From assembly GCF_000826655.1 (NCBI RefSeq), contig NZ_JXJO01000023.1, forward strand, positions 1 to 64,000: 64,000 nt of DNA, given 5' to 3'. Position 1 is the stretch's first letter, and every line of letters starts with the position of its first letter. The notes below the pieces were generated by a model, which did not search any database, was not told the origin of the DNA, and was given only the letters and a program-made list of their open reading frames with translations. Origin of the DNA: Psychroserpens damuponensis (GTDB lineage Bacteria > Bacteroidota > Bacteroidia > Flavobacteriales > Flavobacteriaceae). This document shows, one piece after another, positions 7,163 to 45,849 of this stretch. Both the position numbers and the translations under genes were made by a program.

Positions 7163-7199
7163 ACAAAAAAACCAACTCAAATTGAGTTGGTTTTTTTTT
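7163..7199. terminator. Bidirectional rho-independent terminator
   Basis: The inverted repeat AACCAACTCAA/TTGAGTTGGTT (7170-7180 and 782-7192 counted as 7182-7192) is preceded by an A-run and followed by nine Ts. It sits between the cupin unit (+) and nqrF (-) and can serve both strands. Confidence 0.85.
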
Positions 7200-26266: not shown

Positions 26267-26300
26267 AAAAAAGCTTCATGACAATCATGAAGCTTTTTTT
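26267..26300. terminator. Bidirectional rho-independent terminator
   Basis: A 14-bp perfect stem AAAAAAGCTTCATG / CATGAAGCTTTTTT (26267-26280 and 26286-26299) with a 5-base loop. It is shared by the convergent outer-membrane protein gene and rsmG. Confidence 0.9.
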
Positions 26301-38332: not shown

Positions 38333-39400
38333 ATGGGTCACAACATAAAACCAGGAGTAGCTACAGGAAAAGAAGTTCAAGCAATTTTTAATCTTGCTAA
38401 AGAAAAAGGATTCGCTTTACCAGCAGTTAACGTTATTGGTTCTAATACAATTAATGGAGTTTTAGAAACTGCAAAAGAATTAAATGCACCAGTAATTATT
38501 CAGTTTTCAAATGGTGGTGCTCAATTTAATGCAGGTAAAGGTTTAAGCAACGAAGATCAAAAAGCTGCAATTGCAGGTTCTATTGCTGGCGCAAAACATG
38601 TGCACCTAATGGCAGAAGCATACGGAGTACCTGTAATTTTACATACAGACCATTGTGCAAAAAAATTACTACCTTGGATTGACGGTTTATTAGATGCAAG
38701 TGAAGAACATTTTGCCGCAACTGGCAAATCACTTTACAGTTCTCACATGATAGATCTTTCCGAAGAACCTATTGAAGAAAATATAGAAATTTGCAAAACA
38801 TACCTAGAGCGTATGAGCAAAATGGGAATGACCTTAGAAATAGAATTAGGTATTACAGGAGGTGAAGAAGATGGTGTAGATAATAGTGATGTTGATGAAT
38901 CAAAATTATACACACAACCAGAAGAAGTAGCTTACGCTTATGAAGAGCTAAGCAAGATAAGTGACCAGTTTACCATTGCTGCTGCATTTGGAAACGTACA
39001 TGGCGTTTACAAACCAGGTAATGTGAAATTAACACCAAAAATTCTTAAAAATTCTCAAGAGTTTTTATCTAAAAAACACAATTTACCTCACAACCATATC
39101 GATTTTGTATTTCACGGTGGATCAGGTTCTACAGAAGAAGAAATTCAAGAAGCTATTGGGTACGGTGTCATTAAAATGAATATTGATACAGACATGCAAT
39201 ACGCATTTATGAGTGGTGTACGAGATTATATGGGAGAAAAAAGTGACTACCTAAAAACACAATTAGGCTCTCCAGACGGTCCAGCATCACCAAACAAGAA
39301 ATATTACGATCCTCGCGTTTGGTTACGTAAAGGAGAAAATGCATTTGTTGAGCGCCTTAAAAAAGCATTTGAAGACCTTAACAATGTAAACACATTGTAA
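38333..39400 (+). CDS. fbaA: Class II fructose-bisphosphate aldolase
   Basis: A 355-residue zinc-dependent aldolase of glycolysis and gluconeogenesis, cleaving fructose-1,6-bisphosphate to DHAP and glyceraldehyde-3-phosphate. Zinc and catalytic motifs are ILHTDHCAKKLLPWIDG, SSHMIDLSEEP, AAFGNVHGVYKPGN and DFVFHGGSGSTEEEI. The length and these motifs correspond to the FbaA (class IIA) group. It carries its own promoter element and is followed by a large inverted-repeat element instead of a simple terminator. It contains a TTCCGAAGA word at 38758-38766. Confidence 0.96.
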   Translation: MGHNIKPGVATGKEVQAIFNLAKEKGFALPAVNVIGSNTINGVLETAKELNAPVIIQFSNGGAQFNAGKGLSNEDQKAAIAGSIAGAKHVHLMAEAYGVPVILHTDHCAKKLLPWIDGLLDASEEHFAATGKSLYSSHMIDLSEEPIEENIEICKTYLERMSKMGMTLEIELGITGGEEDGVDNSDVDESKLYTQPEEVAYAYEELSKISDQFTIAAAFGNVHGVYKPGNVKLTPKILKNSQEFLSKKHNLPHNHIDFVFHGGSGSTEEEIQEAIGYGVIKMNIDTDMQYAFMSGVRDYMGEKSDYLKTQLGSPDGPASPNKKYYDPRVWLRKGENAFVERLKKAFEDLNNVNTL

Positions 39401-39456
39401 CAAACTCATTTAGTGATTTGTAACACACTAAATTTCACTGAATTTAATATTTTTTT

Positions 39457-39586
39457 GGGCGTTACGACAAAATTAAACTTTTTGTGTTTAATTTTGTCGT
39501 CAGGCTTTCAGCTATATCTTTTTTTAAAGCAGGTTTTTAACATAAAACCCACTTCAAAAAAAGGATGCCGCTTTAATCCTTAACGC
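39457..39586. repeat. Nested inverted-repeat intergenic element (three-way-junction-like)
   Basis: Three layers of symmetry lie in about 130 bp. The outer arms are GCGTTA (39459-39464) and TAACGC (39581-39586). Inside is a perfect 15-bp hairpin, 39464-39478 with 39486-39500, with a 7-base T-rich loop. A second imperfect hairpin follows, with TCTTTTTTT (39518-39526 region) facing AAAAAAAGGAT and an inner GGTTTT/AAAACC. The flanking words GGGCGTTA and GGCTTTC resemble a dispersed repeat that I remember from other Flavobacteriaceae (unchecked). Only one copy is seen in this window. Confidence 0.65.
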
Positions 39587-39641
39587 AATTCCGATTTAGA
39601 ACACTTCTAATTTCGTATATTTAATATCGAAAATTAAAAAT

Positions 39642-40499
39642 ATGTCTTGGTTTAAAAGAAAAGAAAAAGGGATAACAACCTCTACCGAAGAGAAAAAAGA
39701 CACACCTAAAGGGCTGTGGTACAAATCTCCTACCGGTAAAATAATAGATACAGAAGAACTTGAAAAAAATTTCTACGTAAGTCCAGAAGATGGTTATCAC
39801 GTAAGAATTGGTAGTAGAGAATACTTTGGAATTCTATTTGATGACAATAAATATAAAGAGTTAGATGTAAATCTAACCTCTAAAGATCCATTAAAATTTG
39901 AGGATACTAAAAAATATCCAGATCGTTTAAAAGCCGCTCAAGAAAAAACAAAACTTAAAGACGCTGTAAGAACAGCTGTTGGTAAATCTAAAGGCGAAGA
40001 TTTAGTTATTGCTTGTATGGATTTTTCTTTTATTGGAGGATCAATGGGAAGTGTTGTTGGAGAAAAAATAGCAAGAGCAGCCGAATATTCACTTAAAAAT
40101 AATATCCCTTTTATGATCATTTCCAAATCTGGAGGTGCTCGTATGATGGAAGCAGCTTTATCTTTAATGCAACTCGCAAAAACATCGGTTAGACTTGCAC
40201 AATTAGCCGATGCAGGAATTCCGTATATTTCGTTATGTACAGATCCAACAACAGGAGGAACAACAGCCTCATTTGCAATGCTAGGCGATATTAATATTGC
40301 AGAGCCTGGAGCACTTATTGGTTTTGCTGGCCCTAGAATTGTAAGAGACACTACAGGACAAGAATTACCAGAAGGTTTTCAAACATCCGAATTTCTACTA
40401 GACCATGGGTTTTTAGATTTTATAACGCATAGAAGAGATTTAAAAAACAGAGTTAACCAGTATATAGACCTAGTAATGAATAAGCCCTTAAGAGCATAA
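39642..40499 (+). CDS. accD: Acetyl-CoA carboxylase carboxyltransferase subunit beta, without the zinc-ribbon cysteines
   Basis: A 285-residue beta subunit of the carboxyltransferase that transfers CO2 from biotin to acetyl-CoA in fatty-acid synthesis. The crotonase-fold body is intact: [64 protein letters not shown]. The N-terminal segment aligns with the E. coli C4 zinc ribbon, but both C-x-x-C pairs are replaced ([22 protein letters not shown]). I believe this loss is shared by related flavobacteria. Its partner accA is not in the window. TATATTTA at about 39616, one base off consensus, may be the promoter. Confidence 0.95.
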
Positions 40500-40520: not shown

Positions 40521-40559
40521 AAAAAAAACCTCACCATTTATTTTGGTGAGGTTTTTTTT
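40521..40559 (+). terminator. Rho-independent terminator after accD
   Basis: A 12-bp stem AAAAACCTCACC / GGTGAGGTTTTT (40524-40535 and 40545-40556) with a 9-base loop and a T-run. Confidence 0.9.
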
Positions 40560-45517: not shown

Positions 45518-45525
45518 TATATTTG
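45518..45525 (+). promoter_or_regulatory. Promoter -7 element TATATTTG for rpsO
   Basis: An exact TAnnTTTG, 54 bases before the rpsO ATG. The hairpin at 45531-45547 would lie at the very start of the transcript. Confidence 0.65.
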
Positions 45526-45530
45526 CCGCT

Positions 45531-45547
45531 CGAAAGAAGAGCTTTCG
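45531..45547 (+). promoter_or_regulatory. Hairpin in the rpsO leader, possible S15 autoregulatory site
   Basis: CGAAAG (45531-45536) pairs with CTTTCG (45542-45547) across a 5-base loop, between promoter and start codon. S15 represses its own mRNA through leader structures in several bacteria; that role here is inference. Confidence 0.4.
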
Positions 45548-45579
45548 TATACATAAAAATCATTTACAACAATATTAGC

Positions 45580-45849
45580 ATGTATTTAGATCAAAAAGAA
45601 AAAGAAGCCATCTTTAAAAAACATGGCAAAAATGCACAAGACACTGGAACTGCAGAAGGTCAAATCGCATTATTTACTTACAGAATTAACCACTTAACAG
45701 AGCACTTAAAAAACAATCGTAAAGATTATAATACTGAGCGTTCATTAGTAAAGTTAGTAGGTAAAAGAAGAAGCTTACTAGATTACTTAACTAAGAAAGA
45801 TATTTTAAGATATCGTGCAATAGTTAAAGAATTGAATTTAAGAAAATAA
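45580..45849 (+). CDS. rpsO: 30S ribosomal protein S15
   Basis: An 89-residue protein, the normal S15 length, starting MYLDQKEKEAIFKKHG; ATG 45580 is taken because the family starts here and the ORF extension to 45523 overlaps the promoter. Family landmarks are DTGTAEGQIALFTYRI, LTEHLKNNRKDYN and GKRRSLLDYL. It binds the central domain of 16S rRNA early in 30S assembly. It is followed by a terminator and then pnp, the conserved rpsO-pnp order. Confidence 0.97.
   Translation: MYLDQKEKEAIFKKHGKNAQDTGTAEGQIALFTYRINHLTEHLKNNRKDYNTERSLVKLVGKRRSLLDYLTKKDILRYRAIVKELNLRK

Follow-up and report, generated by a model that had tools for sequence, protein, structure and literature searches.

The gap between fbaA and accD in Psychroserpens damuponensis holds a large nested inverted repeat, which raises the question of whether this sequence serves the neighboring genes as a terminator or a structured RNA, or is one copy of a dispersed DNA element. 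The window analyzed is the whole 64,000 nt stretch at positions 1–64,000 of contig NZ_JXJO01000023.1, in which the upstream gene, for a class II fructose-bisphosphate aldolase (fbaA, 38333–39400, plus strand; NF006628/TIGR01520), and the downstream gene, accD (39642–40499, plus strand; TIGR00515), were both identified above the cut-offs of their models. The element spans 130 bp (39457–39586), begins with GGGCGTTA and is closed by TAACGC at 39586, as read from the sequence and with its ends fixed by comparison with 74 copies from named genomes and 55 from Aquimarina. The outer arms, GCGTTA (39459–39464) and TAACGC (39581–39586), enclose two hairpins, all described here on the plus strand. Hairpin 1 has a variable stem with a perfect pairing of 15 bp (39464–39478 with 39486–39500) and a 7-nt loop, extendable to 20 nt at 90% pairing; hairpin 2 (39516–39566; ATCTTTTTTT ... 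AAAAAAAGGAT) has a variable tip, GGTTTT/AAAACC, and one A.C mismatch, with 85% of 39518–39537 paired to 39544–39563. Covarying pairs define a conserved core with a left half (39502–39515) and a right half (39567–39580), in which AGG 39502–39504 pairs with CCT 39578–39580, T39507 with A39575, and G39511-C39512 with G39570-C39571. The predicted fold is a three-way junction, alike for the plus and minus strands. An earlier note on this DNA had described the outer arms around a perfect 15-bp hairpin, a second, imperfect hairpin, a possible three-way junction and the lack of a T-run after the perfect stem, and each of these points was borne out.

The folding z-score of the segment 39447–39600 was −6.3 for the plus strand and −7.2 for the minus strand, with none of 200 shuffled sequences being as stable, and the window contains four perfect hairpins of at least 15 bp (at 7165, 26267, 39464 and 40521), whereas 20 shuffled 64-kb windows contained none; the structure of the element is therefore not due to chance. 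An intrinsic terminator was considered and rejected, since the stems of the element are AT-rich and no T-run follows either end on its own strand. The other perfect hairpins of 15–16 bp (7165–7197, 26267–26299 and 40521–40559, the last shortly 3′ of accD) are perhaps transcription terminators.

Comparison with Rfam revealed that part of this element, which the earlier note missed, is the Flavo-1 motif (RF01705; 39494–39591, minus strand), with a score of 47.1 bits that exceeds the curated gathering threshold of 42. The match takes in hairpin 2, the core and the right outer arm, leaving hairpin 1 and the left outer arm outside. Rfam files Flavo-1 as an sRNA gene with 76 modeled positions. The repeated DNA unit includes the left outer arm and hairpin 1 as well, and at least two forms of it exist: GGGCGTT...TAACGC and GGAGCTWTTTCC...GGGCTA. 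Flavo-1 is a candidate RNA of unassigned function reported in 2010 by Weinberg et al., named once in the main text of that paper, in a table (PMC2864571), and a review tabulates it among the most abundant families of bacterial small RNAs (PMC9029176). Among the best-ranked full-text matches of longer lists in the literature searched, we found no description of the full element. Elsewhere in the window, Rfam also identified an S15-Flavobacteria ribosomal protein leader (45518–45582, plus strand, 73.5 bits).

Flavo-1 sequences are widely dispersed. The genome of the window contains 11 matches above the Rfam cut-off plus two weaker ones that were judged to be elements on reading, and matches occur in all 23 genomes of the genus examined (2–20 each) and, above the cut-off, in 35 of the 57 genomes of a wider set, with none in 14 control genomes. 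A search with the exact left-half pattern retrieved at least 120 stretches from named genomes, and the 80 listed all carry Flavobacterial titles; 74 of these could be bounded as GGGCGTT...TAACGC units of 78–178 bp, the right end being unrecognized or cut off in the remaining six. The flanks of the 74 copies are unrelated, except for being T-rich on the left (T at 86, 78, and 76%) and mostly A/G on the right. The most extreme case is Aquimarina sp. 821-3Z, with at least 150 copies (all 150 candidates scored, and all 130 in the genus comparison), versus 1–11 copies in each of 22 other genomes of the Aquimarina genus, although these counts rest on 130 scored candidates per genome and may be low; Algibacter lectus contains 49 copies. 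The many intergenic, palindromic copies are a property shared with REP sequences. The second form contains the same core and, as judged by eye, several of its copies lie directly 3′ of a terminator-like hairpin with a T-run. A blastn comparison of positions 39440–39610 gave no match with E ≤ 0.01 in 72,556 plasmid and 50,697 phage records.

In genome G045, a repeated unit of ca. 370 bp (L110–L116) has the second form as its left end, and the right part of this unit, ending in GGTTGTT, recurs along 67–326 kb of contig C23, in places about every 1 kb, in an arrangement that recalls a gene-cassette array. Near-identical copies were also seen by eye in three closely related records (L244, L278, and L268), one of them with an insertion of ca. 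47 nt in the right core, and those in L201 and L242 look similar.

Sequence variation among copies preserves pairing. The search pattern used for the named genomes fixes the left half of the element and, therefore, we quote covariation from 56 hand-picked copies of several forms found with the Rfam model, excluding near-copies from the same genome, of which 48 could be parsed. Watson-Crick pairing was retained in all 48 copies for core pairs A1 and A2 and for a fifth pair, in 45 of 48 for B and in 47 of 48 for C1, against means of 17.8, 16.9, 20.9, 27.1, and 39.0 for the five core pairs after shuffling, and each of these variable pairs occurs as at least two pair types. The set from named genomes (72 of 74 parsed) agrees wherever the columns vary. 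Stem 1 reaches 17 bp among the 100 elements in which at least 3 bp were found, stem 2 shows only two mismatches over 604 paired positions in 55 distinct Aquimarina copies, and 40 stem-and-loop variants occur among 69 distinct Aquimarina copies. The earlier note's picture of a dispersed element whose hairpin stem varies while its flanks are kept agrees with what we found both in the genome of the window and in other Flavobacteria: the stems differ between copies, the core beside them is conserved, and it is the core pairs that covary.

The ends of the element were examined in Aquimarina, using 55 distinct copies out of 73 loci, four of which could not be parsed. These copies have sharp ends and unrelated flanks, with a preference for A-T-T-[A/T] immediately to the left (A in 38, T in 42, T in 36, and A/T in 52 of 55); these bases, like the T-rich left flanks in the named genomes, amount to a preference only. 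None of the 55 copies is bordered by direct repeats of 3, 4, or 5 nt, and direct repeats of 2 nt occur in three, against 3.6 expected by shuffling, indicating an absence of target-site duplication, as in elements of the IS200/IS605 family.

The fbaA-accD gap offers a view of the history of one copy. Gene accD was found in all 23 genomes of the genus, and the full element precedes it in five of them, within gaps of 186–242 bp. A sixth genome, G018 (L067), has a gap of 111 bp with hairpin 1 and both outer arms, from which exactly hairpin 2 is missing from the junction on. The other 17 contain no element in this gap, which measures 35–38 bp in 15 of them and 74 and 78 bp in the other two. The carriers fall in two groups on gene trees, and both trees need two changes. 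The stem 1 sequence is common to the carriers, which suggests a single origin at this site followed by losses or exchange; the foot of this stem is ACGAC/GTCGT in the window and ACCAC/GTGGT in the relatives G014 and G012, and has one mismatch in three others (G006, G019, and G018). None of the loci compared yielded a base-exact empty site in a close relative, all of them being diverged pairs. Five orthologous sets (23 pairs) have cores that are 84–100% identical, whereas identity over the adjoining 60 bp to the right is 28–67% in 21 pairs and reaches 90 and 97% in the remaining two; core identity exceeded that of these 60 bp in 21 of the 23 pairs. This conservation points to selection in place, although the search pattern itself fixed many core bases. 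The 13 copies read in the genome of the window vary greatly among themselves, and the family is thus probably inactive in this genome.

That the element is dispersed as a bounded DNA unit is well supported, and we lean toward reading it as a copy of a non-autonomous mobile DNA element, REP- or MITE-like, of which Flavo-1 as filed is an incomplete form. Against this reading, our searches found no enzyme that would move it and no base-exact empty site in a close relative, and both the conservation of orthologous cores and the placement after genes count against it. Two explanations would instead place its function in the RNA of the host. The more serious of them, which we nevertheless regard as unlikely, is that these are domesticated punctuation marks at mRNA 3′ ends: whichever strand is transcribed would fold into the same branched hairpin, which would shield the upstream message from decay at its 3′ end or mark where the transcript stops, a role also proposed for REP sequences; dispersal would be ancient and the copies would now be kept by selection. 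The position of the copies relative to genes speaks for it. Among the 74 copies from named genomes, three overlap an ORF of at least 100 aa and in 10 one side is without a gene; the remaining 61 lie between genes oriented ++ (20), −− (15), +− (16), and −+ (10), compared with 56, 52, 21, and 49, respectively, for control gaps from the same loci, all delimited with a simple ORF caller. Divergent gaps are hence rarer for elements (10 of 61 vs. 49 of 178; p = 0.014 in a chi-square test on the three gap types), and a position after a gene is commoner among elements than among control gaps. Moreover, where a gene ends toward the element, its stop codon lies within 17 bp of the left end in 18 of 36 cases but within 17 bp of the right end in only three of 31 (p = 0.0005). 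The ratio of 20:15 against 56:52 (p = 0.70) indicates no strand preference relative to genes, and this indifference fits a palindrome acting in RNA. The high identity of orthologous cores, set against right flanks that are mostly 28–67% identical, also speaks for punctuation. Against punctuation, the 17 of 23 species of the genus with no element between fbaA and accD do not need it there, at least 130 copies in one Aquimarina versus 1–11 in 22 others are unlike a host function, and neither end is followed by a T-run. The second explanation, a structured RNA gene or cis-regulatory RNA whose transcribed minus strand acts as RNA, as filed by Rfam, seems to us less probable still. Its helices do covary, and Flavo-1 hits coincide with several 5′ transcribed regions in F. 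psychrophilum, but that transcriptome study describes the hits as lying “indistinctly” in sense or antisense orientation to transcribed regions, with many outside them (PMC9723704). No conserved promoter- or terminator-like sequence was found in the 14–20 bases on each side of the 74 and 55 copies, copies occur alike in both gene orientations (20 and 15), and the Rfam model spans only part of the repeated unit. If one strand alone folds, G-U or G-T pairs should gather on it. In a first set of 149 distinct elements, A.C mismatches outnumbered G.T (24 vs. 5, in the plus orientation of the window, equivalent to G-U on the Flavo-1 strand), both in the stems alone after clustering (13 vs. 1) and in the core (10 vs. 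4). In an independent set, made up of 48 new elements taken from 58 loci, the excess recurred overall (11 vs. 3), with eight to none in the core, but three of each in the stems, so that the stem signal was not replicated, and the Aquimarina stems showed no A.C and one G.T. The asymmetry in the core would favor an RNA, although it may be due to a tolerance of the Rfam model for G-U on the strand that it describes; the result for the stems is not used here as support for the mobile element.

Among explanations that do invoke mobility, a Y1/HUH transposase would be the natural candidate for the enzyme, because REP elements behave alike and because the REP-associated tyrosine transposases (RAYTs) of Bacteroidetes subclass 2.6 are described as flanked by “atypical secondary structures” and lacking GT[AG]G (PMC6006769). 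The earlier note had proposed a REP-like family and a search for such a transposase; the dispersed, intergenic and palindromic nature of the copies stands, and the link to the transposase is not supported. A REP element moved by a RAYT of this subclass would agree in architecture, intergenic dispersal, AT-rich target and lack of target duplication, and there is a Y1 match in 21 of the 23 genomes of the Aquimarina genus. However, no Y1 match with E ≤ 0.001 was found in the genome of the window, which is one of 18 in the genus (of 23) without a match and yet with 2–20 Flavo-1 copies. Flavo-1 was absent, at E ≤ 0.1, from all 20 stretches (1.6–3.2 kb) around weak Y1 matches with RAYT-like ORFs, mostly of 179–222 aa; the HxH and Y motifs were recognized in 14 of these, and several bear short hairpins with a sequence other than that of Flavo-1. 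Among 20 other Y1 stretches, Flavo-1 occurs in one, 2.4 kb from the gene, and in a further stretch of 11.5 kb it lies ca. 8 kb away, both stretches having been cut to include a known hit. Nor does copy number track the number of Y1 matches in the Aquimarina genus, in which the genome with at least 130 copies has two weak matches, one with six copies has 16, and others with 11 and five copies have none. A RAYT was rejected as the mover, since copies do not flank the RAYT (TnpA_REP) genes examined as the REP sequences of a REPtron do, and we consider this explanation very improbable. The hairpin foot likewise lacks the GT[AG]G tetranucleotide, the conserved ends being GGGCGTT and TAACGC. We give even less credit to a MITE-like derivative of a DDE transposon with terminal inverted repeats of 6–8 bp: the small size and the repeats GCGTTA/TAACGC would suit it, but the 55 Aquimarina copies show no target-site duplication of 3–5 nt and 2-nt repeats only at chance level. 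In addition, no autonomous copy was found in 11 stretches from G057, most with two neighboring copies, which on reading by eye contain ordinary-looking genes and no evident transposase.

Other RNA motifs were observed in these searches. Two stretches from genomes of the Aquimarina genus contain a group II intron domain (RF01999; L332, 1853–1968, and L330, 1925–2043, both on the minus strand), which precedes, by a few hundred bp and in the same orientation, a RAYT-like Y1 match, and a stretch around a Y1 transposase gene (L104, 2428–2473, plus strand) contains an Acido-Lenti-1 RNA motif.

The mobile element that we favor can be compared with three known systems. Members of the IS200/IS605 family transpose as a single strand, have terminal or subterminal hairpins, insert next to a short target at the left end and cause no duplication. 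The Flavo-1 element resembles them in its hairpins, short left-end target and lack of duplication (partly after PMC6006769), but it has no transposase inside, no autonomous copy was found, and its target is only a preference. MITEs, in turn, are small, non-coding sequences with terminal inverted repeats and a high copy number that generate a target-site duplication; the Flavo-1 element shares the first features and its many copies, but not the duplication, absent from the 55 Aquimarina copies. As with the REPtrons formed by REP sequences and RAYTs (PMC6006769), it is a short palindromic, intergenic sequence with over 100 copies in one genome, inserted at AT-rich sites with no target-site duplication; unlike them, it is longer, forms a three-way junction, has variable stems, and lacks the GT[AG]G foot. 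Nor was it found near the RAYT-like genes that we examined, and several of these are accompanied by short hairpins of another kind.

From the three-way junction, the covariation, the target preference on one side and the absence of duplication, we infer that the copies probably move as a folded single strand. In such a mechanism, the three-way junction would be the mark recognized by an enzyme acting in trans, and the copy would enter behind a short AT-rich target, much as IS200/IS605 and REP elements do. The stems would be free modules that fold-back copying could extend or perfect and that could disappear when the polymerase skips them, as might have occurred in the species missing exactly hairpin 2 at the junction, and the mover enzyme would not be an evident RAYT. 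Going beyond this, Flavo-1 might constitute a separate class of bacterial single-strand mobile repeats and not an RNA family, characterized by a three-way junction, two exchangeable hairpin modules, stems kept well paired by fold-back copying regardless of their sequence, and movement in trans by an undescribed, non-RAYT enzyme; we put this forward tentatively, as a possibility that is still doubtful.

Should Flavo-1 prove to be a mobile DNA repeat, some of the small RNAs annotated in Bacteroidetes would be wrongly labeled, covariation alone having been taken as evidence for an RNA, and Flavobacterial genomes would harbor a widespread mover with no known enzyme. Because one Aquimarina genome contains at least 150 copies, the question can be tested.
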